Program-made: the position numbers and the translations under genes
Part shown: positions 36,567 through 52,833 of the stretch, one piece after another
Layout of the letters: every line of letters begins with the position of its first letter
How positions within the stretch are numbered: the first letter of the stretch is position 1
NCBI RefSeq assembly: GCF_037893185.1
Contig: NZ_CP140772.1
Span: 62,001-126,000, forward strand
Length of the DNA: 64,000 bases
Reading direction: 5' to 3'
Origin: Chitinophaga sp. 180180018-3
GTDB lineage: Bacteria; Bacteroidota; Bacteroidia; Chitinophagales; Chitinophagaceae
The notes under the pieces: model-generated
Told to the model about the DNA's origin: nothing
Seen by the model: only the letters and a program-made list of their open reading frames with translations
Databases searched by the model: none

Positions 36567-36572
36567 TGGACG

Positions 36573-36580: not shown

Positions 36581-36698
36581 TGTAGAGAATTAAGAATATA
36601 GAAAGAAGAATTAAGAAACAGTGCGGAGATTTAAGCGAATCAACTAAAGTCTTCGCACTGTTTCTTAATTCTTCTTTCTATATTCTTAATTCTCTACA

Positions 36699-36706
36699 TA
36701 TCTTTG
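36699..36706 (+). promoter_or_regulatory. Sigma factor gene promoter -7 box in the right arm of E3
   Basis: TATCTTTG matches TAnnTTTG and is the mirror image of the pyrD box. The ATG at 36713 begins six bases downstream, again predicting a very short or absent leader. Confidence 0.6.
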
Positions 36707-36712
36707 CTCCTC

Positions 36713-37231: not shown

Positions 37232-37330
37232 AAATATTTTCCGGCGCATGGGGGCGTTGGGGTTTTCTATGCGTCTTATAAATAACCACCCGGAAGGGTG
37301 GCGACTGTAAAATTTACAACAACTGAACTA

Positions 37331-38308
37331 ATGACACTATCTTTACCCAAAGAGGCAATGCCTGATGAGGCACTGTATACCTTGCTCTGCAAGTACCTGC
37401 TGAATGAAGCAGATGCTACGGAGCATGCATGGGTGGAAGAATGGAAGGAGCTGGATCCGGGTAATGCCGCTTTGCTGGCTTCTCTTGGTAAGGTGCTCGA
37501 AACGGCTGTCACCAATGAAACCAGGGTGGCTGCAGATACGGAGCATTCCTGGCAGCAGCTGAGAGAGAAGATCGGTGAACAGCCCGTTTTGGTGGCGCTC
37601 AGGCCCAGGTCGCGCTTCCTGTGGCTGAAAGTGGCTGCAGTGCTGCTGGTGGTGATCAGTGCCGGTTGGTGGCTGCTGGTGGGAAGAAAGCCGCAGCAGA
37701 TTTTTGATGGCCCGGTAATGGCCAGTCTGCAGGATGGGAGCCGGGTACAGTTGTCGGATTCCGCCCGGCTGGAAATAGCCAGGGGATTTAATGAAAAGAA
37801 CCGGAAAGTGAGCCTGACCGGCAATGCTACATTTGATGTTAGAGGAAGTGCCGAAAATCCGTTCGTGATTGTACTGGGGCGTACGGAAGTAAAAGTACTC
37901 GGCACACAGTTCAGCATTAATTACAGGCCGGCTACTGCTGCATTGAAAGTACATGTAAGTAGCGGGAAGGTGATGGTGATCGATCATGATAAGGCGGATA
38001 GTGTGTTACTGACAGATGGCATGTTGTTGCAGAAAGAAGGCGACAGGCCGGTTTTTCGTGTAGCCGCTCATGTTAGTGACATCACTAAAAGATCGTTATC
38101 GTTTAAAGACGTTCCATTGGAAGAAGTGCTGCATACAGTTACCGAAGTGTATGATATCAAAGTGGAAGTTGCAAATATGGACCTGTTAAAACTTCCTGTA
38201 AAGGCCGACTTTACAGGTGAATCTGCTGAAGATGTAATCAGGTCGCTTGCATTGATGCTGAATGCCGGCTATGAGAAAGTAAATGATCGTCAGTATAAAT
38301 TAAAATAG
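37331..38308 (+). CDS. FecR-family anti-sigma factor
   Basis: The start is set at ATG 37331 (MTLSLPKEAMPDEALYTLL), giving 325 residues; a GTG at 37298 is possible but less likely. The cytoplasmic N-terminus (YLLNEADATEHAWVEEWKE) would bind the sigma factor. A single membrane helix follows (WLKVAAVLLVVISAGWWLLV, about residues 96-115), then the periplasmic FecR domain (LQDGSRVQLSDSARLEIA, LTGNATFDV) and a C-terminal DUF4974 domain (LSFKDVPLEEVLHTV, YEKVNDRQYKLK) that contacts the receptor. It lies 99 bases after the sigma gene and 58 before the receptor gene. Confidence 0.92.
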   Translation: MTLSLPKEAMPDEALYTLLCKYLLNEADATEHAWVEEWKELDPGNAALLASLGKVLETAVTNETRVAADTEHSWQQLREKIGEQPVLVALRPRSRFLWLKVAAVLLVVISAGWWLLVGRKPQQIFDGPVMASLQDGSRVQLSDSARLEIARGFNEKNRKVSLTGNATFDVRGSAENPFVIVLGRTEVKVLGTQFSINYRPATAALKVHVSSGKVMVIDHDKADSVLLTDGMLLQKEGDRPVFRVAAHVSDITKRSLSFKDVPLEEVLHTVTEVYDIKVEVANMDLLKLPVKADFTGESAEDVIRSLALMLNAGYEKVNDRQYKLK

Positions 38309-38366
38309 GCTACCGGCGCCGTAATGCCCGGCTGCCAAATTCACACTTTTAATATAACAGATAGCT

Positions 38367-41012
38367 ATGTCGTTAGCCGTAAAACTGCTGACGGGAATAT
38401 TATTACTAGGTTTTCCCCTTAAGGTATTTGGGTGGGATTGGCAGACAAGAATTACCATAGTGGTGAGCAACCAGCCTGTTGAAGTGGTTTGCGGAATGCT
38501 GGAGAAAGAATATGGCATTCACTTTTCCTATAGTAAAGAACTGGTCAGTTTATCAAGAAGGGTAACACTGAATGTTCGCCAACAACGTCTGAAAAAATTC
38601 CTGGACGACTTATTTGATCCGGACGATATCCGGTATACCCGTGTGGGAGAGCAGGTAGTATTGTTGCCTGTTCAACGGAATATCCGTACCATCAGTGGCT
38701 ATGTAAGAGACTCCGCCAGCGGTGAAAACCTTATCGGCGCTACTATCTATTCTCCCGGGCTCAGGCAGGGTACTGTTACCAATCAATATGGCTTTTTCAG
38801 TCTTACCACGGCAAAGGATAGCGGCCGGCTTGTATTTTCCTATATCGGATACCAACCCATGGTGAAAAGCATACCTGGCAGAGGCGACAAACTGATCAAC
38901 GTTGAGTTGTCGTCGTTAGGCAGCCTGAAAGAGGTGGTGGTAGTCAGCGGAAAGGAACATACCAAACTACAGGAGCAGACGCAGATGAGCAAACTAAACC
39001 TCAGCACGACTGAATTGCAGGCGATGCCCCGGCTGCTGGGGGAGGTGGATGTAATGCGCACATTACAGTCGCTGCCCGGTGTAAGCGGTGGTATGGATGG
39101 CGCCGGCGGTCTGTATGTAAGAGGCGGTGGCCCCGATCAGAACCTGGTGCTGATAGATGGTACACCGGTGTTCAACTTCTCCCATTTTTTTGGCGTCTAT
39201 TCCCTGTTAAATGCCAACGTGGTTAAAACAACGGACCTTTATAAAGGCGCTTTCCCGGCCCGTTTTGGCGGCCGCCTTTCGTCGGTGGTGGATATTGCCA
39301 TGAAAGAGGGCGATATGAAATCCTGGCATGGAGATGCTTCCATTGGTCTGATATCCACGAAGTTCAATACGGAGGGGCCAATTGTGAAAGACAAAACCTC
39401 ATTCATGTTTTCAGCGCGCCGTTCCTATCCTGATCTTATTCTGAATGCCCTGATGAAACAGGATCATACACTCGGAAAAGGAGGGGATTTTCAGGCATAT
39501 TTTTATGATGTTAATGCTAAAATCAATCACATCTTTTCGCCTAAGGACCGTGTTTTTCTCAGTTTTTACAAGGGCGAAGATAATCTGCTCATTAAACAAA
39601 CCATCGACGACAGTACACAGATCGGCAGTTCCCAGAAATATATCGGGGAAAGTACCAAATTCAGGATGACATGGGGTAATACAATTGCAGCATTGAGATG
39701 GAATCATATCTACAGTCCGAAATTGTTTTCCAATATCACCCTGAATTATTCGCAGTACGCTTTTTCTACCGACTATGAGCACAAATATGTGCTGCCGAAT
39801 ACAGACGAAAAATCGGATGTATCTGGCTATTACAAGTCACGTATGGAGAATAGCGGAGGCCGGGTTGATTTTGATTACCGGCCCAACCCTCGTCATTCCG
39901 TGCGCTTCGGCGTTGTTACTACCCTGCATACATTCAAGCCGGGTAGCTCCTCTTTTCAGGACAAAGACAGCCCGGTGACTCCGCTGGATACGTCTGGAAA
40001 TGCCAACCGGATTACTGGTGCTGAACTGTCGGTTTATGGAGAAGATGACTGGCAGCTGAGGCCTGATCTGTTTGCGAATTTAGGGGTACATGTTTCTGCT
40101 TTCCTGGTGGAAGGCCGTTTTTATTATTCGGTACAACCCAGGCTGGGACTGCGTTATATGCTGCCTCGTAATTGGGCAATGAAGGCGGCCTATACACATA
40201 TGAATCAGTATATTCACCTGTTGTCGAGTAACGGCACCGCGCTCCCCACTGATATATGGGTGCCCTCCACTCAGCGTGTGGCGCCGATGTTTTCCAGACA
40301 GGTTGCATTAGGAATCGCTAAAACTTCCACTAACCTGAAGTATGAATTTTCGCTGGAAGGTTATTTCAAATCCATGAACAACATGATTGAGAACATGGAA
40401 GGTAACAATATCGTTGGGCCTCAGGTAGCCCGGTGGGACGAGAAGGTAACTGTAGGGAAAGGATGGAGTTACGGGGCCGAGCTGATGCTGCAAAAGAAGA
40501 AGGGACCTGTTTCCGGGTGGATCGGCTATACATTGTCGTGGTCATCGCGGCGATTCCCGGGGATCAACAACGGAGATATCTTTCCTGACAAATATGATCA
40601 CCGGCACGATATAGAAGTAGTGCTGGTACAGCAACTGGGCAGGCGCTGGGAAATTTCGGCTTCGTGGCATTATAATTCAGCAACGCCGTTTACGTTGCCG
40701 GTGGCCAGTTATGGCGGTTCCGGTACCGCTTCGCCTTTTGAACCGGGAGGAGGTATTGTTCGCATCGACCGTTATGATAAATGGAACAACTATCGTGGTG
40801 CTGATGTACACCGGCTGGACATAGGCATCACCAATACCAAACAGCATAAAGGATGGAGCCGTAGCTGGAACGTTAGCGTGTTCAATGTATATAACCGGAA
40901 GAATCCTTTTTACTATTATATAGGAGAAAATACGGCAAACAACAAGCGTTACCTTACAAGAGTAACGCTGTTGCCGATTTTACCAAGTGTTACCTATTCA
41001 GTTAAATTCTAA
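38367..41012 (+). CDS. TonB-dependent receptor with N-terminal signalling (STN) and carboxypeptidase-like domains
   Basis: An 881-residue outer membrane receptor. After the signal peptide comes an STN-like signalling domain (VVCGMLEKEYGIHFSYSKEL), then a carboxypeptidase-regulatory-like domain (ISGYVRDSASGENLIGATIY), the plug (MPRLLGEVDVMRTLQSLPGV with GAGGLYVRGGGPDQNLVLID) and the barrel ending in PSVTYSVKF. The STN domain should contact FecR when ligand binds and release the sigma factor. The partner is a DUF4249 lipoprotein rather than SusD, a pairing often seen in Bacteroidota; the ligand is unknown. Confidence 0.92.
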   Translation: MSLAVKLLTGILLLGFPLKVFGWDWQTRITIVVSNQPVEVVCGMLEKEYGIHFSYSKELVSLSRRVTLNVRQQRLKKFLDDLFDPDDIRYTRVGEQVVLLPVQRNIRTISGYVRDSASGENLIGATIYSPGLRQGTVTNQYGFFSLTTAKDSGRLVFSYIGYQPMVKSIPGRGDKLINVELSSLGSLKEVVVVSGKEHTKLQEQTQMSKLNLSTTELQAMPRLLGEVDVMRTLQSLPGVSGGMDGAGGLYVRGGGPDQNLVLIDGTPVFNFSHFFGVYSLLNANVVKTTDLYKGAFPARFGGRLSSVVDIAMKEGDMKSWHGDASIGLISTKFNTEGPIVKDKTSFMFSARRSYPDLILNALMKQDHTLGKGGDFQAYFYDVNAKINHIFSPKDRVFLSFYKGEDNLLIKQTIDDSTQIGSSQKYIGESTKFRMTWGNTIAALRWNHIYSPKLFSNITLNYSQYAFSTDYEHKYVLPNTDEKSDVSGYYKSRMENSGGRVDFDYRPNPRHSVRFGVVTTLHTFKPGSSSFQDKDSPVTPLDTSGNANRITGAELSVYGEDDWQLRPDLFANLGVHVSAFLVEGRFYYSVQPRLGLRYMLPRNWAMKAAYTHMNQYIHLLSSNGTALPTDIWVPSTQRVAPMFSRQVALGIAKTSTNLKYEFSLEGYFKSMNNMIENMEGNNIVGPQVARWDEKVTVGKGWSYGAELMLQKKKGPVSGWIGYTLSWSSRRFPGINNGDIFPDKYDHRHDIEVVLVQQLGRRWEISASWHYNSATPFTLPVASYGGSGTASPFEPGGGIVRIDRYDKWNNYRGADVHRLDIGITNTKQHKGWSRSWNVSVFNVYNRKNPFYYYIGENTANNKRYLTRVTLLPILPSVTYSVKF

Positions 41013-41016
41013 ATAG

Positions 41017-41877
41017 ATGTGTATGAAATATATTTTCGTAGTAGCGTTACTGTTAGGTGTTTTTCTGATAGCATGTGAACGGAATGAAGATATTAAGATG
41101 CCCTATGAAGGAGATAAAATAGTAGTGAACTCATTGATTCAGCCAGATAGTGTAATATACATCCGGGTAACGCGCAGCATACCTTCTAACAAATTTGATG
41201 ATGCCGGTTATGCTGATATTAAGGAAGCAACAGTTTCTCTTTCGGCCGATGGAGTACCGGTGGCGCCTCTTACTGCTCAGCAGATAAATGGTCGTTACTA
41301 TTATGTGTCAGCACAAACGGCTGCATTGGGAAGAAAGTACACAATACAGGTAGCCGCACCAGGACTCTCACCCGTAGCAGGTACTGATACGCTGCCCGCT
41401 GCTCCTCAGGCAGGTAATGCAGCCGGACAGAGTAACAGCAGTCGTATTCAGTTTACGTTGAAGGATAATCCGCTGTCGAAAGACTACTACAAAATCCGGC
41501 TTTATAAAACAGATACTTCCGGTAATAACGGAAGTTTCCTGAATTTCCGGCTGGATCCTGCTTTTAATAATAATCTCGTCGATTTTTTTACGAAGGGCGA
41601 CTACAGTATGCTGATCATGGACGACGAGCGCTTTGACGGCAAGCGCGTAAATTTTGTGTTACAGACGGAGAACCTGCTTACTGGTCCGGCTAAAATAACA
41701 GTGGAAGTAAGTGCGCTGACGTTTAGTTCCTACCAGTACTTCAACAGCCTGCAGGCACAAAAGGAATCAGGCAGGGGAGTGGTGCCATACCCTATCCGCG
41801 TGTACTCCAATATTACCAATGGCTATGGCATTGTTGGAGGAATTAATACTAAAAGGATGACATTCAATATACAGTAG
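41017..41877 (+). CDS. DUF4249 family lipoprotein
   Basis: A 286-residue lipoprotein (lipobox LIAC, then ERNEDIKMPYEGDK). The N-terminal half has the beta-sandwich pattern of DUF4249: KIVVNSLIQPDSVIYIRVTR and YADIKEATVSLSADG. It starts four bases after the TonB receptor stop, so the two are coupled. An ATG two codons later is an alternative start. DUF4249 proteins are the usual partners of this receptor class and may act as the surface ligand-binding subunit, in place of SusD. Confidence 0.88.
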   Translation: MCMKYIFVVALLLGVFLIACERNEDIKMPYEGDKIVVNSLIQPDSVIYIRVTRSIPSNKFDDAGYADIKEATVSLSADGVPVAPLTAQQINGRYYYVSAQTAALGRKYTIQVAAPGLSPVAGTDTLPAAPQAGNAAGQSNSSRIQFTLKDNPLSKDYYKIRLYKTDTSGNNGSFLNFRLDPAFNNNLVDFFTKGDYSMLIMDDERFDGKRVNFVLQTENLLTGPAKITVEVSALTFSSYQYFNSLQAQKESGRGVVPYPIRVYSNITNGYGIVGGINTKRMTFNIQ

Positions 41878-41904: not shown

Positions 41905-41969
41905 TTTCCCGATTTGTCATAAAATTTCCCGATTTGATCATCTGGTTACAATTTTATGACGTAAGTTTG
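41905..41969 (+). promoter_or_regulatory. hmuT promoter with two copies of a shared haem-locus motif
   Basis: TTTCCCGATTTGATCA (41925-41940) is followed after 21 bases by TAAGTTTG (41962-41969), a perfect TAnnTTTG box. A second, partial copy TTTCCCGATTTGTCAT begins exactly 20 bases upstream at 41905. The same motif and the same 21-base spacing occur at 46035 and 52322. The motif would sit just upstream of or over the -33 region, as expected for an activator site. Which protein binds it is unknown. Confidence 0.75.
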
Positions 41970-41972
41970 TTC

Positions 41973-42207
41973 CAGCATAATTTACTCCGCTACAAATAAA
42001 TCCGGATGCTTCATCACCCGTGAAGCAGTCGGTGTTTTCATCACAGTTAGAATAAATATTCACAAAAGAAATTGACCGGCGCTTTTAAACGGGCGTTTCC
42101 GGAAGGGGATATTTTGTCCCTGTTACTTTAACCTGTAGGAACATGGCGGAGTAAAGATTGTTCCTGCGGGCCATGGTTGCCCTATCCCGGGTAGGGCAAT
42201 CTTTTTT
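41973..42207 (+). ncRNA. Structured leader RNA of the hmu operon with a terminator before hmuT
   Basis: About 235 bases run from the predicted start of transcription to a terminator. TTTACTCCGC (41981-41990) is perfectly complementary to GCGGAGTAAA (42146-42155). The latter lies in the loop of another stem, GTAGGAAC (42135-42142) with GTTCCTGC (42160-42167), so a pseudoknot is possible. A hairpin GCTTCA...TGAAGC sits at 42008-42026. The end is a strong terminator TTGCCCTA-tcccggg-TAGGGCAA followed by TCTTTTTT (42177-42207), 53 bases before the hmuT start. GGGCC upstream could compete for the terminator stem. It matches no riboswitch class recognised by eye. Confidence 0.6.
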
Positions 42208-42260
42208 CCTTTTATCATCGCAAACCAATTCATACTACATAATTAAAACATAAACCGAAC

Positions 42261-43103
42261 ATGAAATTGTTGTTACGGTGGAGCGCCGTATTGCTCCTGC
42301 TATGCTTTAGTGTAAGCGTGCACGTTAGTGCGCAGTCAACTGCGTATAAAAAAATCGTATCCCTGAATGGTACAGTAACCGAGATTCTTTGTGAGCTGGG
42401 TTTTTGTCAACAGATAGTGGGAGTGGATGTAACGAGTACTTTCCCATCGGAAATAGCGAAAGTGCCGAAGGTTGGCCATAACCGGAATATTACCGCAGAG
42501 CCGGTATTAGCGTTGCAGCCGGATCTTATTATATCTACCACTAATTTTCTCAGTCCGGCTGTGGTAGCCCAGTTTAAACAGGTGGGTGTACATCATGTGA
42601 TGGTAGAGCAGGAATACTCGGTAGCGGGAACAAAGAAACTGATTACACAAATTGCGGCGGCGCTGCATGTTCCGGAAAAAGGGGCCGCCTTGTGTAAACA
42701 ACTGGAACAACAGCAGCAGGTGCTGAAAGTAGTGCCACAACACAAGAAAGTACTGTTTATCTACGCGCGTGGCGCGGGCACTATGATGGTGGCCGGTGCG
42801 GCAACTCCAATGGATAAAATGATTACGCTTGCCGGTGCAGAAAATGCTGCCACAGGATTTAATGATTTCAAACCGTTGACAGCCGAGGCCATGGTGGCAG
42901 CCAATCCTGATGTAATACTCCTTTTCGATTCCGGCCTGCAAAGTTTGGGTGGGATAGATGGGTTACTGAAAGTGCCTGGCGTTGCACAGACCAATGCCGG
43001 AAAGAACCGGAAAGTGATAGTGATGGATGGGCAACTACTGACAGGATTCAGTCCGCGTGTGATTACAGCCATTAAAGAATTATCGCAAAAGATCAGTGGA
43101 TAA
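42261..43103 (+). CDS. hmuT: Haem ABC transporter substrate-binding protein HmuT
   Basis: A 280-residue periplasmic protein with signal peptide MKLLLRWSAVLLLLCFSVSV and cleavage near SAQS. It has the class III binding-protein fold: KIVSLNGTVTEILCELG at the start, VGHNRNITAEPVLALQPDLI in the first lobe, a long linking helix, and ARGAGTMMVAGAATPMDKMI in the second lobe. The order substrate-binding protein, FecCD permease, ATPase, HmuS is diagnostic of haem import. It collects haem in the periplasm for the HmuUV importer. The leader upstream holds a terminator, so expression may be attenuated. Confidence 0.9.
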   Translation: MKLLLRWSAVLLLLCFSVSVHVSAQSTAYKKIVSLNGTVTEILCELGFCQQIVGVDVTSTFPSEIAKVPKVGHNRNITAEPVLALQPDLIISTTNFLSPAVVAQFKQVGVHHVMVEQEYSVAGTKKLITQIAAALHVPEKGAALCKQLEQQQQVLKVVPQHKKVLFIYARGAGTMMVAGAATPMDKMITLAGAENAATGFNDFKPLTAEAMVAANPDVILLFDSGLQSLGGIDGLLKVPGVAQTNAGKNRKVIVMDGQLLTGFSPRVITAIKELSQKISG

Positions 43104-43116
43104 AGAAAACGTGTTG

Positions 43117-44169
43117 ATGCAATTATCAAAGAATTACAGCATACCAGGCATACTTGTAATAGTACTGATTGCCGCTGTGTTTCTGGCTACAGGCAGTGGC
43201 GCTATGCATATCTCTCCCGCACAGATACTGGCTATCCTGTTGCACAGGATACATATTGATATTCCTGTGCATTACGATAATAGTATGGAGGCCGTGTTGA
43301 TGATCATACGCCTGCCGCGGGTAATATTGGGCGTATTAACAGGTGCCGGTTTAGCTACCGCCGGCGCCGCGTTGCAGGGGTTGTTCAGGAACCCGATGGC
43401 TGATCCCGGTCTTATCGGGATCAGCTCCGGAGCGTCAGCAGGGGCTGTATTGATCATCGTTTTTCAAGCCAGCCTGCCGCTCTGGCTCAATACGGGCTGG
43501 GTACATTACTATGCAATGAACATCGCTGCTTTTGCCGGGGCATTTATAGCCGCCTGGTTAATTATTCGTATAGCCGGTACCGGTAGTGGTTCGATGGTGA
43601 TGCTGATGTTGCTGGGGGGCATCGCTATTAACGCGCTGTGTATGGCATTTACATGGCTGATGGCGTATTTGTCGACCAACGAACAGATGAGGAGTATCAT
43701 ATTCTGGACAATGGGCAGCCTGGGCGGCGCTACCTGGGAAACGGTGACGGCCGTATTTCCCTTTCTGCTGCTGCCTTTGATACTACTGCCCCGCACAGGC
43801 GCGGCGCTGGATATTTTTTCTTTGGGAGAGCAGGAAGCCAGGCATATAGGCGTGAATATTCAACGTCTGAAAATGCAGCTGCTGTTATTATCTACGATGG
43901 TGATTGCTGCCAGCGTAGCAGTGGCAGGCGTAATTGGCTTTGTAGGCCTGGTTGTGCCACATATTGTCAGGCAATTCACCGGACCATCCTACAAATTATT
44001 GTTTCCCTGTGCAGCACTGGCCGGTGCTATATTACTGACCTTGGCGGATCTTATCAGCAGAACAATTGTAGCTCCGGCAGAACTGCCGGTAGGGGTAGTG
44101 ACAGCTATATTGGGTGCTCCGTTTTTTATATGGTTGATTCTGAAAGAAAAACGCACATTGATGATATGA
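43117..44169 (+). CDS. hmuU: Haem ABC transporter permease HmuU (FecCD family)
   Basis: The start is placed at ATG 43117 (MQLSKNYSIPGILVIVL), 13 bases after hmuT, giving 350 residues; a GTG at 43096 overlapping the hmuT end is possible. About ten membrane helices are predicted. Family motifs include LPRVILGVLTGAGLATAGAA, FRNPMADPGLIGISSGASAG and IGFVGLVVPHIVRQFTGP, the last near the coupling helix that meets the ATPase. As a dimer it forms the inner membrane channel for haem. Its stop overlaps the next start (ATGATATGATG region). Confidence 0.92.
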   Translation: MQLSKNYSIPGILVIVLIAAVFLATGSGAMHISPAQILAILLHRIHIDIPVHYDNSMEAVLMIIRLPRVILGVLTGAGLATAGAALQGLFRNPMADPGLIGISSGASAGAVLIIVFQASLPLWLNTGWVHYYAMNIAAFAGAFIAAWLIIRIAGTGSGSMVMLMLLGGIAINALCMAFTWLMAYLSTNEQMRSIIFWTMGSLGGATWETVTAVFPFLLLPLILLPRTGAALDIFSLGEQEARHIGVNIQRLKMQLLLLSTMVIAASVAVAGVIGFVGLVVPHIVRQFTGPSYKLLFPCAALAGAILLTLADLISRTIVAPAELPVGVVTAILGAPFFIWLILKEKRTLMI

Positions 44170-46013
44170 TGTTAGATATAGAACATATTTCCCTGAAGCT
44201 ATCGGGCCGGCTGGTATTGGACCGGATCACCCTTCAGGCTGCAGGCGGCGAGCTGTGTGTGTTGATGGGCGCCAATGGTGCAGGAAAATCATCGTTGTTG
44301 AAGGTACTTGCCGGCGAGTATACCAACTATTCAGGGAAAGTATGGCTGAACGAACAACAGCTACGTGAACAATCACCGGCAGAACAGGCGGCCTGCAGGG
44401 CCGTATTATCGCAACGTACCGGGTTGACGCTGCCTTTTACTGTACGCGAAGTAGTTGCTATGGGCAGATATATTCATCCGCCCGACCCGGTATTGAATGA
44501 TGCTATTATTACCTATGCCATGCAGCGGCTGCAGGTCAGTGATTTAAGCGATCGCAGCTGGCTGCATCTTTCCGGAGGGCAACAGCAGCGGGTGCAGATG
44601 GCGAGGGTATTGGCCCAGTTGCTGGATGCTCCCGAATTGAAACACCGCTCCGGCGGAAAGATGCTGCTGCTTGATGAGCCGGTAACGGGAATGGATATAC
44701 GCCATCAGCATATCGCTTTACAGCTGGCCAGGGAGCTAAGCAATAACGGTGTACTGGTAGTGGCTGTATTACACGACTTTCAGCTGGCAGCAGCCTATGC
44801 CGATCGTGTTGTTATGCTACATCACGGACGTTTGATGGCTGTTGGAGATGTAGCTGCTGTATTAACCGAAAACAATATCAGACAATGCTTCGGAACAGAT
44901 GTAAAAGTGCTGGAGCATCCTGATTACGATCATCCTATTATTATAACTTCTTTTAACACTCATCTCAAAAAAAAATATTACCAGATGGAAACAATTATCA
45001 CTCCGCTTAAAGCGCAATGGCTGGCTTACCAGCAACAACATCCGAAAGTACGCATCCGTGACGCTGCAAAAGCATTGAACGTAACAGAAGCCCGGATAAT
45101 AGCAGCGTGTACCGGAGACCTGGTCAGGCATATGAAAACAGACTTCCCTGCCTTGCTGCATAAATTGCCGGCGCTTGGCCGCGTAATGGTGTTAACGAGA
45201 AATGAGAGCTGTGTGATAGAACGAAAAGGCACATTCGAAAACGTCAATACAGAAAGTAAACATGTGGCATTGGCAGTAGGAAAAGATATTGACCTGCGCA
45301 TGTTTATCAATAAGTGGACAATGGCCTTTGCATTGGAGAATGATACTGCTACGGGTTTTAAAACATCCATACAGATATTTGACAGCGCAGGCGATGCCAT
45401 CATGAAAATATATGCACAGCCGGAAACGGATATGCAACAATGGAACGGGTTGGTACAGGAATTTACGGCAGCAGCCCAGTCTGATACAATACAGGTAACC
45501 GCCCGGGTACCACAACAACGGGGCATGACCGGAAATGTAGATCGGGAAGCATTCCTGAGCGATTGGGCAATATTAAAAGATACACATGATTTTTATCCTA
45601 TGTTGATGAAATATCGTATCGACAGATTACATGCATTGGAGCTGGCCGAAGGTCGTTTTTCCCGCCGTATTTCTTCCGGTAGTGTAAAAACCATTTTGCA
45701 AAACGCAGCTTCAGGTGGTCTGGAAATTATGGTGTTTGTGGGAAATCATGGGAATATAGAAATTCATACCGGCCAGGTTCACAGGGTATTGGAGATACCG
45801 GAATGGATCAACGTCATGGATGCAGATTTCAACCTGCATGTTAAAACAACTGATATCGCTTCCTGCTGGGTAGTAGACAAACCAGCGGAGGGCGGCGTTA
45901 CTTCTGTGGAAGTGTTCGATAAAGCTGGTGAAATGATCATACAGTTTTTCGGAAAACGTAAGCCCGGAATACCGGAACTGCCTGAATGGCGGGCTTTGCT
46001 GGCGCAGTTGTAA
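44166..46013 (+). CDS. hmuV: Fused haem ABC transporter ATPase HmuV and hemin-degrading factor HmuS
   Basis: One uninterrupted frame of 615 codons. Residues 1 to about 255 are a haem-type ABC ATPase: Walker A GANGAGKSSLLK, signature LSGGQQQRVQMARVL, Walker B MLLLDEPVTGMD. From Met274 (ATG 44985) onward, 342 residues match a full HmuS/ChuS-type protein (VRIRDAAKALNVTEARIIAA at its start, NESCVIERKGTFENVNTE), built from two related halves. In most bacteria these are separate genes. The linker is encoded by a run of nine A (44967-44975). One extra A would stop HmuV about 14 codons later and leave HmuS as a separate product from its own ATG. HmuS could receive haem in the cytoplasm directly at the importer. 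Confidence 0.85.
   Translation: MMLDIEHISLKLSGRLVLDRITLQAAGGELCVLMGANGAGKSSLLKVLAGEYTNYSGKVWLNEQQLREQSPAEQAACRAVLSQRTGLTLPFTVREVVAMGRYIHPPDPVLNDAIITYAMQRLQVSDLSDRSWLHLSGGQQQRVQMARVLAQLLDAPELKHRSGGKMLLLDEPVTGMDIRHQHIALQLARELSNNGVLVVAVLHDFQLAAAYADRVVMLHHGRLMAVGDVAAVLTENNIRQCFGTDVKVLEHPDYDHPIIITSFNTHLKKKYYQMETIITPLKAQWLAYQQQHPKVRIRDAAKALNVTEARIIAACTGDLVRHMKTDFPALLHKLPALGRVMVLTRNESCVIERKGTFENVNTESKHVALAVGKDIDLRMFINKWTMAFALENDTATGFKTSIQIFDSAGDAIMKIYAQPETDMQQWNGLVQEFTAAAQSDTIQVTARVPQQRGMTGNVDREAFLSDWAILKDTHDFYPMLMKYRIDRLHALELAEGRFSRRISSGSVKTILQNAASGGLEIMVFVGNHGNIEIHTGQVHRVLEIPEWINVMDADFNLHVKTTDIASCWVVDKPAEGGVTSVEVFDKAGEMIIQFFGKRKPGIPELPEWRALLAQL
44967..44975 (+). other. Run of nine A at the HmuV-HmuS junction
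   Basis: CTC followed by nine A encodes L-K-K-K in the zero frame, which stays open into HmuS. With ten A the frame ends at a TAA after about 14 codons; with eight A a third frame is entered. Such runs are known sites of transcriptional slippage and of sequencing error, so the number of A decides between fusion and two separate genes. Confidence 0.6.
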
Positions 46014-46034
46014 TTTACGGGTTGCGCAATAAAT

Positions 46035-46079
46035 TTTCCCGATCCGATCAAATGGATAAGATCCAACCAATTATTTTTG
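46035..46079 (+). promoter_or_regulatory. Promoter of the haem receptor/HmuY operon with the shared motif
   Basis: TTTCCCGATCCGATCA (46035-46050), then 21 bases, then TATTTTTG (46072-46079). Motif and spacing are the same as at 41925 and 52322. The leader also carries TTTACTCCGC (46093-46102), the same ten bases found early in the hmuT leader, and a small stem CGCCTG-aaaa-CAGGTG near 46157-46172. Confidence 0.72.
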
Positions 46080-46215
46080 CATTGCATTTTTATTTACTCC
46101 GCCCGTAAACACAACCCGGAAAAACATTTGTTTAACTGACCGATGACTGATAGTAACGCCTGAAAACAGGTGTGGATAGCTATTGCTGATATATAACTAT
46201 AACGACTATACGGAA

Positions 46216-46929
46216 ATGAAATTACGTACTTCTGTTCCATTACTGTTGCTGATAGCAACGGGCATGATACTCTATGCCTGCAAGAAAGTGACTGATGCGC
46301 CGCTGTTGCCGGAGAACCGTATTCTTCAGTTTACTGTAACCAATGCTGCAGATGGGCCTATACAAGGAGTGATCAATAATAACGACACCTCGATAGTATT
46401 GTATATCCCTTACTACACAGCACTGATTACCATACTCCCGGATATCAAACTGCCCACCGGCGCCACTGTTACACCTGCGAGTAATACCCTGCTGCAGAAC
46501 TGGATGGTGAAGCAGGCCATGGATACTCCTATCATCTACACAGTAAAAGCCGGTAATGGTAACACTGCGGCGTATCGGCTGAAAGTAGACGGGCAACAAC
46601 CTGATATGATAGTGAATGAATTTTCTACTGATGCCGCTAATCCGGTAGTGATCACACATCGTCACAAATCTGAAAGCGACATGATGGGAATCAGTGGCGA
46701 TAACCTGGTACCTAATACGAAAACTAATTTCATTACGCTGGTGAGCGAATCGGGCCGTGGATATACGCTGGAAACGAAACCTAATAGCGTAATAGGGTAT
46801 AAGTATTTTACCGGTTCCATTCCGCCTGACTCTAATGCACTGCCTTCCGGCAAATATTATATCAGGGTTACCTGTTTTAGCAAGACAGCAAAACTCAAAA
46901 ACCCGGTTATTATTAAACAGTTGCCATAG
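46216..46929 (+). CDS. Lipoprotein with a DUF5018-like domain, haem locus
   Basis: The start is ATG 46216 (MKLRTSVPLLLLIATGMIL), giving 237 residues; an upstream TTG at 46183 would spoil the signal. The lipobox is LYAC followed by KK. The N-terminal part (ILQFTVTNAADGPIQGVINN, then LPTGATVTPASNTLLQNW and YTVKAGNGNTAAYRLKV) is a small beta domain like DUF5018. The C-terminal half is another beta domain ending in YYIRVTCFSKTAKLKNP, of IPT/TIG type. It is the first gene of the receptor operon and resembles the product of 47742-48650. Role unknown; surface contact with haem proteins is a possibility. Confidence 0.7.
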   Translation: MKLRTSVPLLLLIATGMILYACKKVTDAPLLPENRILQFTVTNAADGPIQGVINNNDTSIVLYIPYYTALITILPDIKLPTGATVTPASNTLLQNWMVKQAMDTPIIYTVKAGNGNTAAYRLKVDGQQPDMIVNEFSTDAANPVVITHRHKSESDMMGISGDNLVPNTKTNFITLVSESGRGYTLETKPNSVIGYKYFTGSIPPDSNALPSGKYYIRVTCFSKTAKLKNPVIIKQLP

Positions 46930-46995
46930 TAATCCAAGTATGCCTGTAACGGCTTTTCGTAACAGCATTTTATCATAAATAAATCCTTGAAAACA

Positions 46996-47652
46996 ATGAC
47001 AAATTTGTTGAAAAAAATAGCAGCCGTAGCAGTGGTTGCATTCGTAGTTGCCTCTTGTCAGCGGGAAAATTCTGTACAGCCGCTGAGAGGCAATACACAG
47101 GAAACCCTTGCATCGAAGCAGGCTTCAGGTAGCGTTGCCTTGCTGGCACGCACTATTGACGTCGGAGATACCGCGCAGATACGTAACCTGAAAAGCGACA
47201 GCGTTATTCCGCCATCTACCCCTGCACCCTTCTATTACAGCCTGAGTACAGAGTCGAAGGTGACCGCGGTGAGCAGTGCAAGAGCTGTATTGTTCGATGG
47301 CTACTTTAACGCAGATATCAGTGGCGTGAACGGCTTTCAGCTCGGATTCATTGATGCTGTTTCATATGCCGGCATTACTGCTTCCAATGCCATCAGCAGC
47401 ATGACGGCTGCAACCGGAAATAAGATGGGATATAACAATGTTAATCCCGGATGGTATAACTACTATTTTAACGATAATCACAAAGTACTGCCAGTTGCCG
47501 GCAGAACGCTTATTGCTTACAAGCAATCCGGCGGTACTGTAACAGAGATCTACAAAATAAAGATGCTGAGTATTTACAAAGATATGCCGGCTAATCCTAC
47601 AGGTACTGAACCTATTCCTTACCTGTCGTTTGATTACCAGCGTTTGCAATAA
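46996..47652 (+). CDS. HmuY-like haem-binding lipoprotein (first copy)
   Basis: The start is ATG 46996 (MTNLLKKIAAVAVVAFVVAS), giving 218 residues; lipobox VASC. The C-terminal half matches HmuY: PGWYNYYFNDNHKVLPVAGR, then YKIKMLSIYKDMPANP and LSFDYQRLQ. HmuY of Porphyromonas is a surface hemophore that takes haem from host proteins and hands it to HmuR. The N-terminal half here lacks the clear 'WDLAF' strand seen in the two other copies, so this is the most divergent of the three. Confidence 0.72.
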   Translation: MTNLLKKIAAVAVVAFVVASCQRENSVQPLRGNTQETLASKQASGSVALLARTIDVGDTAQIRNLKSDSVIPPSTPAPFYYSLSTESKVTAVSSARAVLFDGYFNADISGVNGFQLGFIDAVSYAGITASNAISSMTAATGNKMGYNNVNPGWYNYYFNDNHKVLPVAGRTLIAYKQSGGTVTEIYKIKMLSIYKDMPANPTGTEPIPYLSFDYQRLQ

Positions 47653-47657
47653 AAAAA

Positions 47658-47713
47658 TACCGGCCCGTTTAAAACAGAACACCCTGGGAAGTGTGATGTA
47701 ATAAAGGCCGGTA
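47658..47713 (+). repeat. Inverted repeat between the first HmuY-like gene and the next lipoprotein gene
   Basis: TACCGGCC (47658-47665) and GGCCGGTA (47706-47713) face each other across about 40 bases, and the left arm starts just after the stop codon in a run of seven A. It may be a processing or partial termination site that separates expression of the lipoprotein from the genes downstream. Confidence 0.45.
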
Positions 47714-47741
47714 CAGGCATTTTGGATAAAATTATTATAAA

Positions 47742-48650
47742 ATGAACACTTTGAATAAATATTTTCTGGCTGGTTGTGTTTTCATGCTATGCGCTTGTAA
47801 AAAGGAAACGGCCAGGTTGCCTTATAACCAGATCACGTCTTTCGTGATTCCAGATGCAGATGGAAAGTCACTGGAGGCGGCGGTCAGCGGCCAGGATATC
47901 ATTGTGTACTGGCCATTCGGACAAGCGCAGCCCGCAGAGGTCAGTCCGCAGATTACGGTCACTGAGAAAGCTACTGTTAAACCTGCATCTGGTGAAAAAA
48001 TATCCTTCAACGGCGATGCTATTTACACAGTAACCGCTGAAAGCGGTGCTACAGCTACCTATCGTTTAAAGATTGTTTCCAATCAGCCTGTTCCTGTCAT
48101 ACGAGGTATGGATGGAGGTTCAGAGCAGATAGGACCAGGTGGAACGCTGTACACCGGGCATCTTTATTTATTGCAGGATAAATCCCGTAATAAGATATCG
48201 CTGATATCAAAAAGCGGTGAGCAGCTTCCCTGTACCATAAAAGAAATTACCCGCGACAGGCTCGCCTTTCAGTTTCCTGCAAAGCTGGATACCGGAAGAT
48301 ATAATCTCCAAATCACTTCCGGAAACTATACAACGATCGTAAAAAAGATATTTCTCTACCGGCTTGGGAATCCGGAGCTATATGATTACGGCCAGCTGAC
48401 GGTAAAGCGTGGACAAACTTTTACAGTAAACGGAAATTATATATCAGCAGTAACGAAAGCTGTGTTGTACCTGGATTTCAGCAGGAGCCTTCCGATAGAA
48501 GTAGTAGGTAATACAGCCACTACCATCACCCTGCGGATTCCGCAGAACTTCCCGGTAGGTACCTGTCAGGGTGGGATGTTACTCACCAATACTTATTACA
48601 ACATAACAGATGATTTTGGATTAGATGTGCCTGTCACCATAACTGAATAA
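47742..48650 (+). CDS. Lipoprotein with DUF5018-like and IPT/TIG-like domains, haem locus
   Basis: A 302-residue lipoprotein (MNTLNKYFLAGCVFMLCAC, lipobox LCAC). The first domain (ITSFVIPDADGKSLEAAVSG, then ATVKPASGEKISFNG and YTVTAESGATATYRLKI) repeats the layout of the protein from 46216. Two further beta domains follow, the last starting near LTVKRGQTFTVNGNYISAVT and typical of IPT/TIG folds. It stops six bases before the haem receptor start, so the two are coupled. A role as a surface accessory to the receptor is inferred from position only. Confidence 0.7.
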   Translation: MNTLNKYFLAGCVFMLCACKKETARLPYNQITSFVIPDADGKSLEAAVSGQDIIVYWPFGQAQPAEVSPQITVTEKATVKPASGEKISFNGDAIYTVTAESGATATYRLKIVSNQPVPVIRGMDGGSEQIGPGGTLYTGHLYLLQDKSRNKISLISKSGEQLPCTIKEITRDRLAFQFPAKLDTGRYNLQITSGNYTTIVKKIFLYRLGNPELYDYGQLTVKRGQTFTVNGNYISAVTKAVLYLDFSRSLPIEVVGNTATTITLRIPQNFPVGTCQGGMLLTNTYYNITDDFGLDVPVTITE

Positions 48651-48656
48651 AATTTG

Positions 48657-50783
48657 ATGCGCTACTGTCGACTCTTTAGCCTATGCGTTTTGTTGCTCAG
48701 CACAACAGTCTGCCGGGGTCAGTCAGATTCCGGTGCTGTTCGTAGTTTGAGAGGAGTAGAGGTTACTGCCTTAAAACCTGCCACCGAAAGTTTGGTGAGC
48801 AAGGCTGCTATGCCCGTTACCATTATCTCCCGTAAAACATTGGATATGATGGGCAGCCGCCGCCTGGATGAGGTATTGCGGGAGCAAACAGGATTGGCGG
48901 TCGTCAATGATATTAAAGGAGGCGCGCGGGCAGTTGGTTTGCAGATGCAGGGATTCAGCGCTGCCTATACGATGATATTGATAGATGGTCAGCCTATGAT
49001 CGGGCGAAATGCCGGCGACTTTGATCTGTCACGTATAACCGTTTCCGATATAGAGCGGATTGAAATCATTAAAGGAGCTTCTTCCAGCCTGTTTGGAAGC
49101 GAGGCGCTGGCAGGCGTGATCAACATTGTTACCCGGCAGCATATTACCCGCGCGCAGGCGCTGGCAGCAGTTCGTTATGGCTCGCTGAATAATGCCGATG
49201 CTACACTGGAGGGAGAAACGCCCATCCGTAAAGGGAAAGGGGCAGCTTACCTTTCAGGCAACTACTATCATACTGATGGATTCAGTGTGAATCCCTATCT
49301 CACAAAGGGAGCAACTGTTCCTCCCTATAATAGTTTTACACTGCAGGGGAGAGCAAGATATTCGCTGAGTTCCGCAACATCACTGAGTTTCGCCGGCAGA
49401 TTTGCCAACAGGAAATCTGTAGCGGTGAACAGCTATGGTAAAGAGGAACAACATACCAGCAGAGACGCATTGGATGAAGGCGATATGAATGCTTCTCTGA
49501 TGATGAATAATAGTTTCAGGCATGGTATGCATTTGAAAACGCAATACTACCTGACACGCTATGCTTCAAATCAGACCACTACCATGATGGAATCGGGTGT
49601 GGTGAATGCCCGGAATATTTTTACGCAATACCTGCACCGGCTGGAAGTGCAGGGCTCCAGGAAATTCGACGATGCGTGGAATGTTACTGCAGGAGCTGGA
49701 GGTACGCTGGAAACCATGAATAGTGAAAACTATAAAGGCACCGGTAATATGAACAGCGTATTCGGATATGTACAGGCCGACTGGAAGCCATTGGAAAAAT
49801 TCAATGCCTTGGCTGGTGCCAGGTATGATTATCATAACAATTTTGGCGGACGATTGAATCCCAGTTTCGGGTTGAGATATACACCAGCTTCATTTATTAC
49901 ATTAAAGGCATCCGTCGGCACTGGTTTTAAAACACCCGATTTTAAAGAACGTTACCAGGTTTTTACCAATCCCCAACAGGGATATACAGTATTGGGTGCC
50001 GCGGTATTGGATGCCACTTTAAAGGAAATGAAGGATGCCGGACAGATCAGCGAAATAAGGCTTGTTGCCGATCGCATAGCCAGAGAACTGAAGGCGGAAA
50101 CTTCTGTGTCTTATAATGCAGGTGTGGCTGTTAGTCTTCCGGGAGCAGTGAAGATAGAAGTCAACGGCTTCTATCATAACGTACATAACCTGATTAATAC
50201 GATTCAGGTAGCAACTAAAACCAATTACCAGCAGGTGTTTTCTTACATGAACCTGAACCGGACTTATATGACAGGGCTGGAAGCCAGTGCCCTGTGGAAG
50301 CCGCTGGAGGGCCTGGAAGTATCAGCAGGGTACCAGTTACTTTATGCGAAAGACAGAGGCGTAATGGATTCTATTCGTGCCGGTGTATGGCCATATAAGA
50401 ACATCAGGAATAATAATACGGGAGAATCAAGACAGGCGAAGGTATCGGATTATTTCGGTCTGGAGAACAGATCGCGCCATATGCTGAACCTGCGCATATT
50501 TTACGAATATGCTCCCTGGAGCATCACTGCTTCTGTCAGGGCTAATTACCGCAGCCGCTATGGTTTTGATGATGCTAACGGCAACCGTTATATCGACCGG
50601 TATGATACTTATGTAAAAGGCTATTGCCTGCTGTTTGCCTCTGTGGAAAAGAAACTTTTTAATAAACATTTATCTATACAACTGACAGCTGATAACGTAT
50701 TCGACTATACGGATATGTTGATGCCAGCGCAGCCCGGACGTATTATGATGGCCGGGTTTTCCTGGCGGTTTTTCAGGGATTAA
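48657..50783 (+). CDS. hmuR: TonB-dependent haem receptor HmuR
   Basis: The start is ATG 48657 (MRYCRLFSLCVLLLSTTVC), giving 708 residues. The plug domain is clear: MPVTIISRKTLDMMGSRRLD, LQMQGFSAAYTMILIDGQPM, and IERIEIIKGASSSLFGSEAL followed by AGVINIVTR. The 22-strand barrel ends in MMAGFSWRFFRD. The setting between HmuY-like genes and next to the hmuTUVS operon marks it as the haem receptor; the fold alone would fit other ligands. It carries haem through the outer membrane with TonB energy and passes it to HmuT. Confidence 0.88.
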   Translation: MRYCRLFSLCVLLLSTTVCRGQSDSGAVRSLRGVEVTALKPATESLVSKAAMPVTIISRKTLDMMGSRRLDEVLREQTGLAVVNDIKGGARAVGLQMQGFSAAYTMILIDGQPMIGRNAGDFDLSRITVSDIERIEIIKGASSSLFGSEALAGVINIVTRQHITRAQALAAVRYGSLNNADATLEGETPIRKGKGAAYLSGNYYHTDGFSVNPYLTKGATVPPYNSFTLQGRARYSLSSATSLSFAGRFANRKSVAVNSYGKEEQHTSRDALDEGDMNASLMMNNSFRHGMHLKTQYYLTRYASNQTTTMMESGVVNARNIFTQYLHRLEVQGSRKFDDAWNVTAGAGGTLETMNSENYKGTGNMNSVFGYVQADWKPLEKFNALAGARYDYHNNFGGRLNPSFGLRYTPASFITLKASVGTGFKTPDFKERYQVFTNPQQGYTVLGAAVLDATLKEMKDAGQISEIRLVADRIARELKAETSVSYNAGVAVSLPGAVKIEVNGFYHNVHNLINTIQVATKTNYQQVFSYMNLNRTYMTGLEASALWKPLEGLEVSAGYQLLYAKDRGVMDSIRAGVWPYKNIRNNNTGESRQAKVSDYFGLENRSRHMLNLRIFYEYAPWSITASVRANYRSRYGFDDANGNRYIDRYDTYVKGYCLLFASVEKKLFNKHLSIQLTADNVFDYTDMLMPAQPGRIMMAGFSWRFFRD

Positions 50784-50794
50784 TCATTATCACC

Positions 50795-51493
50795 ATGAAA
50801 ATGAAATGTATTGTTTTACTGGCGCTGGTGGCAGGAATGGTTTCCTGTAAGAAAGATGATAACAGCGCGCCGGGTCGTTCTTATGAAGACGGCAAAAGCA
50901 CAGTTATTTATGATATGGCCGGCGATACCCGGGCGTCAGTAGGAGATGGCATCGATGGTAAAGAAAAGCGCCCCTTTGCCACCTTTTTGTTCAGTCTGAA
51001 AACCGGCAGGCAATCGTGGGATACTACTGCTGCGAATCTTCGTAGCAATAGTTGGGATCTGGCATTTACTGATCTCTATAACTCGCTTTTAATCGTTAAC
51101 AATGGCACTAAGACCAAAAGCCCGGGTCGCGGCGGAAACGGACAAGGTGCTATTGTATTGGTGGATAAACCATATGCCAGCGTCACCGTTGCTCCGGACG
51201 ATGAATACTTCAGCACCAACGACCTGGTAAGTATAGGCTGGGATGGATATCCCCAGCCGACAAATAAAGGCTGGTATTTTTACAGTCTTACTACCCACCT
51301 GGCCAGGGCCATTCCCAATCGCACCTTTGTATTGCGCACCGCTGAAGGTAAATATGCAAAGCTGGAATTGATCAGTATGTACAAGGGCAACCCTCCGGCT
51401 GTAACAGACCTGTTATGGCCGGCACCTTATTTCACGATCAGGTATTTTCTGCAGGAAGATGGAAGCCGGAACCTGAATACTCCAACTAAATAA
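50795..51493 (+). CDS. hmuY: HmuY family haem-binding lipoprotein (second copy)
   Basis: A 232-residue lipoprotein (lipobox MVSC, then KKDDNSAPG). The HmuY pattern is complete: FATFLFSLKTGRQ, NSWDLAFTDLYNSLLIVNNG, NKGWYFYSLTTHLARAIPNR and TFVLRTAEGKYAKLELISMY followed by KGNPPA, with the final strand YFTIRYFLQEDGSRNL. It lies 11 bases after hmuR. As a surface hemophore it should deliver haem to HmuR. An ATG two codons later is an alternative start. The next gene is a related but different copy. Confidence 0.85.
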   Translation: MKMKCIVLLALVAGMVSCKKDDNSAPGRSYEDGKSTVIYDMAGDTRASVGDGIDGKEKRPFATFLFSLKTGRQSWDTTAANLRSNSWDLAFTDLYNSLLIVNNGTKTKSPGRGGNGQGAIVLVDKPYASVTVAPDDEYFSTNDLVSIGWDGYPQPTNKGWYFYSLTTHLARAIPNRTFVLRTAEGKYAKLELISMYKGNPPAVTDLLWPAPYFTIRYFLQEDGSRNLNTPTK

Positions 51494-51506
51494 AAAACAA
51501 ATAAAT

Positions 51507-52289
51507 ATGAGATACTATTTTCCAATAGCCGTTGCCGTTATTTCACTACTGGCAGCCTGCTCCAAAAGTAATGACGATAAAACCACGCCTCAGCCACCTG
51601 CTGGCGACGATGTGAAAACAGGCGTATATGTGATCAGCAATATGGCAGCTGATACTTCGGCAACTTCAGCTGTAAATGCTACCACCATTTACTATAGTCT
51701 TGAACAGAATAAAATAGTACCCGCATCGCTTGCACAAACCAGCAGCTGGGACGTAGCTTTTACGGGAATATACAATAGCAGTATTGCGGTTAATAATGGA
51801 AAGGCACCCAATAGCCCCGGATTCGGAGGCCCTGGGCAGGGGGGCTTATATCTTTACAGAAACGATGGAGTAGAAGCGGCATCCTTTGATAATAATACCT
51901 TCAAACCGCTGAGTATTCCCATTGATCAAAACCTGTTCAATACTTCCTTCAACGCCGTGAAATCCGTTACCATATCAGATGCGGATTTTGTGGCAAACGA
52001 TTTTATCGGCATCGATCATTTTATGGGAACAGGATACGGCTACGCCTACTATGATTTCTATGGAGCCTTCTTTCCGAACGATAAGAAGAAAGCACATATC
52101 GTATACACGCTGCCGCGCACTATTATCGTTAAAACAGCAAAAGGGAAATACGCGAAGCTCCAGATTACCAGTGTCTATAAAAACAGCCCGCAAAGCCCCA
52201 GCCGCGACGATAAAACCGGCTATCTTTCCTTCAGATTTGCCATTCAAATGGATGGAACAAAGAACCTGGACATAGCAGTGAACCGTTAG
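51507..52289 (+). CDS. HmuY family haem-binding lipoprotein (third copy)
   Basis: A 260-residue lipoprotein (lipobox LAAC, then SKSNDDKTTPQPPAG). It shares the HmuY pattern (IYYSLEQNKIVP, SSWDVAFTGIYNSSIAVNNG, TIIVKTAKGKYAKLQITSVY, LSFRFAIQMDGTKNLD) but differs enough from the second copy, including a longer central part rich in Tyr, Phe and Gly (GIDHFMGTGYGYAYYDFYGA), that it may bind another porphyrin or host protein. It follows the second copy after 13 bases and ends the operon. Confidence 0.83.
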   Translation: MRYYFPIAVAVISLLAACSKSNDDKTTPQPPAGDDVKTGVYVISNMAADTSATSAVNATTIYYSLEQNKIVPASLAQTSSWDVAFTGIYNSSIAVNNGKAPNSPGFGGPGQGGLYLYRNDGVEAASFDNNTFKPLSIPIDQNLFNTSFNAVKSVTISDADFVANDFIGIDHFMGTGYGYAYYDFYGAFFPNDKKKAHIVYTLPRTIIVKTAKGKYAKLQITSVYKNSPQSPSRDDKTGYLSFRFAIQMDGTKNLDIAVNR

Positions 52290-52321
52290 TATTCCTTAAT
52301 TTTCCCCTTTGCGTAATTCCT

Positions 52322-52366
52322 TTTCCTGATCTGATCATTACACGCAGCGCCTCTTATCTACATTTG
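52322..52366 (+). promoter_or_regulatory. Third promoter with the shared haem-locus motif
   Basis: TTTCCTGATCTGATCA (52322-52337), then exactly 21 bases, then TACATTTG (52359-52366). The arrangement is the same as at 41925 and 46035. The leader of about 135 bases to the next gene holds a strong hairpin at 52462-52482. Confidence 0.72.
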
Positions 52367-52461
52367 TACCTGTAACGATGCCCGGAGTATTTAGCTGTAC
52401 ATAAAATAAGTCCGTTGTTTGAAACTGCCAGATTAATAAGAGTGATGAATTAAGTCCTGAC

Positions 52462-52482
52462 GGCGGCCATCCAATGGCCGCC
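52462..52482 (+). promoter_or_regulatory. Leader hairpin before the small cysteine protein gene
   Basis: GGCGGCCAT-cca-ATGGCCGCC is a perfect 9-bp stem with a 3-base loop, followed by GGAGG (52483-52487) and the start codon at 52507. An in-frame ATG at 52474 lies in the right half of the stem and is thus a poor start. Without a T-run it is more likely a translational control or stability element than a terminator. Confidence 0.5.
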
Positions 52483-52506
52483 GGAGGCACAACAAACCCA
52501 ACGCAG

Positions 52507-52833
52507 ATGTGTAATTACCAGACATTGTATCACGGAAAGTCAGGATACGTTATCCGCTGTCCGCATTGCAAAAGTATCCAGATTGCATTCGGTACTACTG
52601 TTGTTAACCTTGATGCAAACGAATTTGAGTACTTCAGAAAAATGACCATTCATATGGCCAATGATCATCATTATCTATCCGATCATGAAAAGATAGTGTG
52701 TGTGCCTTTACCGGCCGATCATGTAATGATGTTGCTGACACCGGCGGAGGTGGTGGAATTGGCCGGCATGACGTCGGAAGTTCAGGCCTTGCTCGATACT
52801 TACGAAATCCTTGAGAAATTGCCAGGGCGTTAG
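52507..52833 (+). CDS. Small conserved Bacteroidota protein with a CxxC motif, part of the haem regulon
   Basis: The start at ATG 52507 (MCNYQTLYHGKSGYVIRCPH) gives 108 residues. Cys2, Cys18 and Cys21 (RCPHCKSIQIAFG) lie near the N-terminus and several His in HMANDHHYLSDHEK, so a metal- or haem-binding site is plausible. It looks like the DUF6686 family, from memory only. No signal peptide, so cytoplasmic. No function is known. Its promoter carries the same motif and spacing as the two haem operons, which links it to haem or iron supply; it could be a sensor or a metal chaperone. Confidence 0.7.
   Translation: MCNYQTLYHGKSGYVIRCPHCKSIQIAFGTTVVNLDANEFEYFRKMTIHMANDHHYLSDHEKIVCVPLPADHVMMLLTPAEVVELAGMTSEVQALLDTYEILEKLPGR

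Follow-up and report, generated by a model that had tools for sequence, protein, structure and literature searches.

Tandem 21-bp direct repeats before iron-uptake genes of Chitinophagaceae and their candidate AraC-family activator

At the araBAD promoter of Escherichia coli, AraC achieves class II activation from 17-bp direct-repeat half-sites (araI1-araI2) spaced by 21 bp, of which the proximal one extends to the −35 region, and tandem 21-bp direct repeats that end in the −33/−35 region are the classical layout of an AraC class II activator. The Fur regulon of Proteobacteria is organized around a palindromic repressor box and includes an iron-linked small RNA, RyhB. Here we describe a direct-repeat element in a 64,000-nucleotide stretch of DNA, referred to below as the window (C1:62001-126000 of the 8.13-Mb genome of Chitinophaga sp. 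180180018-3, termed G000), in which the 16-mer TTTCCYGATYYGATCA precedes three promoters of a haem-uptake locus at a fixed distance from the TAnnTTTG box, itself centred near −7. We propose that this motif is probably the half-site of an AraC-family activator encoded outside the window, at G000:C1:7905056-7905979.

AraC-type activators of iron uptake are already known as a kind, the examples being PchR and YbtA (PMC8725597). That paper assigns YbtA a ligand domain rich in cysteine (11 Cys), describes repeats in the promoters that it targets, and has both regulators serving their own siderophore system alongside Fur. The candidate resembles PchR and YbtA in its family and its association with iron acquisition, and YbtA in being cysteine-rich, but it differs in that, in a genome where no iron-type Fur was recognized, its gene lies outside a siderophore locus and its sites precede feoB across the family. 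Control of an hmu-type target in the Bacteroidota is also described for CdhR of Porphyromonas, which acts on hmuYR and which PMC10434189 lists as a transcription factor of the response-regulator type that shares its operon with a protein carrying a hemerythrin domain, whereas the candidate here is an AraC-family protein. The same paper describes knowledge of the molecular mechanisms behind the Bacteroidetes iron stimulon as scarce. A search confined to open-access literature found no description of a family-wide, feoB-tied AraC version with a cysteine cluster, or of the site or the RNA presented below.

The motif lies at 41925, 46035 and 52322 of the window, exactly where a sequence-only reading of this DNA had placed it, and direct inspection agrees with that reading that exactly 21 bases separate each 16-mer from a perfect TAnnTTTG box, at 3/3 promoters. 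All parts are on the plus strand. At promoter 1 the proximal half-site TTTCCCGATTTGATCA (41925..41940), an exact 16-mer like its two counterparts, is followed by the −7 box TAAGTTTG (41962..41969), and the partial extra copy 20 bp upstream that had been claimed is real (TTTCCCGATTTGTCAT, 41905..41920). Weaker copies also precede the other two sites, in each case by 21 bp: promoter 2 consists of a degenerate upstream half-site TTTACGGGTTGCGCAA (46014..46029), the proximal half-site TTTCCCGATCCGATCA (46035..46050) and the box TATTTTTG (46072..46079), and promoter 3 of TTTCCCCTTTGCGTAA (52301..52316), TTTCCTGATCTGATCA (52322..52337) and TACATTTG (52359..52366). No TTTG was found at the usual −33 spacing in any of the three. 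The window holds three exact 16-mers, none with one or two mismatches and two with three mismatches, and a scan of both strands for the half-site (up to 4 mismatches) with a box at 20-22 bp returned only these three places. A similar element precedes an hmuT-like gene, as read by eye, in two other genomes (G106, locus L040; G006, locus L054).

Across the whole genome the 16-mer has 88 matches: five exact, seven at one mismatch and 76 at two. Each of the five exact copies is followed at N21 by the box, with at most one mismatch; three of them are the window sites, and the independent test is therefore provided by the two outside the window (2/2), for which the chance of such a box is ~0.005 per site (19/4096), or ~2e-5 for both, at equal base frequencies. 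With up to three mismatches in all, the 16-mer plus N21 box has seven genomic matches and its reversed control none. The 16-mer alone is not specific, since 81/88 of the loose matches have no N21 box; among the seven one-mismatch copies, a box accompanies one, another forms the upstream member of a tandem pair, and the remaining five have neither. Hence box-less matches, which the sequence-only reading had named as evidence against itself, are indeed numerous for the loose 16-mer, but not for the full element.

The picture of a single site has to be amended, as two half-sites spaced by 21 bp usually make up the unit. Further members in the genome precede TonB receptors (493054 and 1999938) and feoB (7420323), and half-site pairs exactly 21 bp apart occur at 1999917/1999938 and 7906036/7906057. 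The tandem pattern (TTTCC, N16, TTTCC, N32, TnnnTTTG) was searched in 60 Chitinophaga genomes and gave 220 matches in 59/60 of them, compared with five for the reversed pattern and 13, in 12/60 genomes, when the last gap was cut by 5 bp. The reversed and shifted controls rule out a chance origin of the element, and the spacing is, as had been argued, hard to put down to coincidence.

The genes behind the element are mostly concerned with iron uptake. In 30 tandem loci, taken from the matches listed and read by eye, 14 elements precede a TonB-receptor-like gene (L227 being the least sure), five a PepSY gene, and five are small-RNA promoters. When these 30 exact-pattern loci were pooled with 16 that allowed up to one mismatch, some of which resemble chance matches, and 10 downstream proteins were chosen from the 46 for a Pfam scan, seven had TonB-receptor domains, two had PepSY_TM and one had no family. 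The putative targets overall are FeoB, FecCD, HemS, HmuY, TonB receptors and PepSY_TM proteins. The earlier proposal of a haem- or iron-responsive regulator is thus supported for iron acquisition and fails for haem as the common theme: because feoB and the TonB/PepSY systems carry the element, this is an iron-acquisition regulon, and a haem-only regulon is ruled out.

The candidate regulator is a 307-residue AraC-family protein with an HTH_18 domain, the C-terminal double helix-turn-helix being present, and with a cysteine cluster in its N-terminal half, C74-X6-C81-X4-C86-X4-C91-X7-C99. In an alignment of 31 sequences (the query plus 30 picked out of 120 listed) the cluster stretch has at least four cysteines in 31/31 and at least five in 27/31. 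The AlphaFold model has a mean predicted local distance difference test score of 81.5 and a predicted template modelling score of 0.56, with the cysteine loop poorly defined. A fold search with the N-terminal half, where an AraC-family activator would have a cupin-like ligand domain, gave no clear match, although an unlisted family in such a search is no evidence. A haem regulatory motif is rejected, the reference protein having no Cys-Pro dipeptide. The gene does not lie in a siderophore locus: its neighbours in a 9-kb locus (L061) are, by eye, a 560-residue open reading frame (ORF), a small secreted-protein ORF and an ileS-like ORF, and those in L048 are gyrB-like and ileS-like sequence.

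The tandem pair at 7906036 starts 57 bp past the stop codon of this araC gene, and the order araC gene, tandem sites and box ending TTTG is found in 53/53 Chitinophaga-type loci, a set that includes L130 (named Flavihumibacter) and L133 (named [Flexibacter]), whose proteins are at least 83% identical, and leaves out L141. In the 53 loci the TTTCC pair behind araC is spaced by 21, any other spacing from 15 to 27 occurring in at most two, and the sites start 3-325 bp past the araC match in 52/53 and ~1 kb past it in L093. The same order of gene and sites recurs in another genus, in two genomes (L048 and L049) whose protein is 44% identical. In L048 (positions 1545-1620) the tandem sites by araC precede a different stretch of ~75 nt that ends in a GC-rich hairpin and a T run and is perhaps a counterpart of the RNA described below. 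In a Thermoflavifilum metagenome-assembled genome (L163), a TTTCC pair spaced by 21 bp lies ~7 bp past the araC stop, but its half-sites have diverged and no box stands at the appropriate distance.

Site and protein also co-occur at feoB across genera. A match to the candidate is present in 140/147 family genomes; by our reading of the match table it is full-length in 109 and covers mainly the DNA-binding part in 31, and each genome was assigned to its class before scoring. A feoB match was present in 138 genomes, of which 136 were scored; G088 and G129, where the match had no N-terminus, were dropped, and G063 and G142, which have two feoB matches each, were scored without the second. The promoters were divided into 30 from which a second consensus, TTTCCYNATNTCGTAA, was read (26/30 being usable in one earlier comparison) and 106 that were held out. 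In the 30 discovery loci (up to 5 mismatches, gap 20-22) the site is present in 18/22 genomes with the full-length protein and in 0/8 without it. In the held-out promoters (up to 4 mismatches) the figures are 62/80 with the protein versus 3/26 without (Fisher p ~2e-9, kinship ignored), and the gap to the box is 21 in 45/80 and 22 in 15/80, any other gap from 8 to 35 accounting for at most three. The three held-out exceptions are G016, where the match is cut by a contig end, and G112 and G131, which are 69% and 80% complete. The search of the genome and its relatives for the motif-N21-box unit thus found a conserved element whose spacing is fixed across the family, mostly before iron-uptake genes, and the earlier suggestion that it may be the class II activator site of an undescribed haem- or iron-responsive regulator survives these tests.

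We suggest that two monomers of the candidate would sit on the direct repeats, which are two helical turns apart. Given the position of the −7 box, the half-sites would cover roughly −69 to −54 and −48 to −33, and the proximal one, ending ~21 bp before TAnnTTTG, would occupy the place of the −33 element. The activator may stand in for that element as the class II contact, because the three window promoters have no TTTG there. Activation would be by the apo-protein at low iron, once the cysteines had lost iron or an iron-sulfur cluster. Such a system would resemble AraC at araBAD in having direct-repeat half-sites ~21 bp apart with the proximal one in the −33/−35 region, the link between site and protein coming here from co-occurrence and from linkage in Chitinophaga, and it would differ in its signal, in the −33/−7 promoter of the Bacteroidota and in the cysteine cluster, which AraC is not known to have. 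With the proteobacterial Fur regulon it shares the kind of target genes and perhaps, as with RyhB, an iron-linked small RNA, but not the direct repeats or the probable activation.

Several observations weigh against this assignment. Under the rule used, 18/80 of the held-out genomes with the protein have no site, neither held-out group consists of independent lineages, and the second consensus was itself derived from the first 30 feoB loci. The Chitinophaga consensus alone is weaker, with 41/80 versus 2/26 at 5 mismatches, and at 4 mismatches the difference is not significant (15/80 versus 1/26, p 0.11). Beside araC in other genera (L066-L092, L141, L145, L148-L172) the tandem element was found in only 1/54 loci (L074), a looser search of L066-L092 found none, and L141, a relative of 46-59% identity, has no site. 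This rarity of linkage outside Chitinophaga slightly lowered our confidence in the AraC-family activator, which we still regard as the probable binder. In G000 no site was seen ahead of the araC gene itself, and of the same 30 exact-pattern loci two precede a response-regulator-like ORF and four (L207, L210, L229, L230) have, by eye, no sensible downstream gene. Finally, the 3′ part of site 3, TGATCTGATCA, is a short inverted repeat, because of which a symmetric dimer is conceivable at that site alone.

The genome has 139 matches to PF12833, and some tandem sites may serve paralogues of the candidate. It is even conceivable, though we think it unlikely, that one or more other AraC proteins bind the sites in general and that the conserved neighbour is present merely because the small RNA adjoins it. 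Some tandem matches have variant halves (TTTCCGnATCTCGTAA), some sites lie near other AraC genes (the one at 5948759 near 5948192, for example), an AraC ORF follows the receptor at 493054 on the same strand, and linkage to the candidate gene is, as noted, rare outside Chitinophaga; but presence of the site at feoB tracks this particular protein across genera, and the linkage holds in every Chitinophaga-type locus and in a second genus. The candidate might also be a repressor or dual regulator that releases its sites at low iron, since a protein over −33 could block the polymerase and the net response to iron would be alike. We consider this rather unlikely as well, as the tandem repeats reaching −33 have the classical layout of an AraC activator and the window promoters seem to need help, because they have no TTTG at the −33 spacing.

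Regulators of other families fit the element less well. An alternative sigma factor for which the motif is an extended promoter element would explain the fixed distance to the −7 box, and genes for an extracytoplasmic function (ECF) sigma factor and FecR lie nearby in the window (36704-38308), but the second copy two helical turns upstream, the ordinary TAnnTTTG box and the co-occurrence with the AraC protein make this reading highly improbable. A Fur- or DtxR-type metal-dependent repressor is nearly as improbable. The genome does encode one FUR-family and two DtxR-family proteins, and site 3 contains the short inverted repeat TGATCTGATCA, but across the family the element takes the form of a direct repeat, and the wider consensus TTTCCYNATNTCGTAA is not palindromic. 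The gene for the only FUR-family protein of the genome (45.3 bits) has a CobW-type GTPase gene two genes away, and from this neighbourhood we take the protein to be Zur-like; no iron-type Fur was recognized. No FUR match was found in 16/60 family genomes (13/54 of those of good quality), including G014, which carries sites. The two DtxR-family proteins carry FeoA domains, and a DtxR-type iron repressor may exist in this genome.

In Chitinophaga the tandem sites behind araC, with their TTTCTTTG-like box, are followed by a conserved stretch of ~200 nt that ends in a terminator-like hairpin (7906102-7906299 of C1 in G000, locus L262, downstream of the araC gene). It is present in 53/53 loci, 52 by alignment and L093 by covariance model. 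In an alignment of 35 sequences (that of G000 plus 34 from the 53 loci, selected because their ends were clean) 27/50 proposed pairs changed on both sides, double-change cells number 136 against a shuffle mean of 58, and sliding the partners brings the covariation score down from 0.263 to 0.07-0.11, a contrast that is biased in favour of the proposed structure because the latter was derived from single-sequence folds. Compensatory changes occur in 8/10 pairs of the terminator, which is all that RNAalifold recovered from the alignment, the rest of the structure coming from single-sequence folds that were then counted. Searched in 147 genomes under strict filters that lose weak matches, the covariance model hit the three Chitinophaga genomes among them at E below 1e-35 and 10 others weakly (E 1.8e-4 to 0.0099); L158 and L160 are two more weak matches. 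None of the six sources searched against Rfam, five of them with the Chitinophaga RNA (L061, L127, L115, L104, L136), reached a gathering score, the sub-threshold overlap in L136 being with suhB (22.7 bits versus 41), and a known riboswitch or small RNA family is rejected on these grounds. The RNA contains a near-invariant stretch, AAGCTTCCTTAT and AGATTTGACC, which may pair with targets.

The activator would thus drive, beyond the genes for iron and haem uptake, a structured RNA downstream of its own gene, and we would guess that this predicted RNA is iron-sparing. A wider hypothesis, which we put forward tentatively and hold to be somewhat less probable than its negation, is that iron homeostasis in the Chitinophagaceae is run in place of Fur by a single AraC activator, which senses iron directly through a metal or iron-sulfur cysteine cluster and whose apo-form, bound to the tandem 21-bp repeats, activates the uptake of iron and haem and also, in Chitinophaga, a structured RNA of ~200 nt with a RyhB-like iron-sparing role. 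If the cysteine cluster does sense iron, an activator would be doing here what is usually left to Fur-type repressors. The proposed regulon, with its single DNA element, a candidate protein and a candidate RNA, is testable across the whole family.

The genes behind the three window promoters are all on the plus strand where a strand was recorded. Downstream of promoter 1 is a haem ATP-binding cassette (ABC) system made up of an hmuT-like periplasmic binding protein (42261..43103, +, Peripla_BP_2), a FecCD-type permease (43096..44169, +) and an open frame in which an ABC ATPase is fused to HemS domains (43638..46013, +), whose true start is probably near 44150. The first gene after promoter 2 is a lipoprotein-like ORF (46216..46929, +, by eye and with no Pfam match), downstream of which are a TonB receptor (48654-50783) and two HmuY proteins of the same operon (50795-51493 and 51507-52289). 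A DUF6686 protein (52474..52833, +) is encoded after promoter 3.

Between promoter 1 and hmuT is a structured leader of ~290 nt (41970..42260, +; fold z-score −3.45), with a long-range helix that pairs 41981-41990 with 42146-42155 (TTTACTCCGC with GCGGAGTAAA) and a terminator-like hairpin at ~42175-42207, just 5′ of hmuT. A comparable arrangement is seen in two other Chitinophaga genomes (L040, L054), and a search of Rfam gave no convincing match, only a weak one to GibS (15.9 bits versus a cut-off of 115). From its predicted fold, the leader is a possible attenuator or riboswitch. The sequence TTTACTCCGC recurs right behind the −7 box of promoter 2 (46093-46102), and CGGAGT lies behind that of promoter 3 (52383-52388). 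Directly upstream of the haem locus, the genes for the ECF sigma factor, FecR, a TonB receptor and a DUF4249 protein (36704-41877) are without the motif, and directly upstream of the sigma factor ORF, which starts at 36704, is a very long, near-perfect hairpin (36572-36707; −100.8 kcal/mol, z −20.7) that yields spurious microRNA matches.

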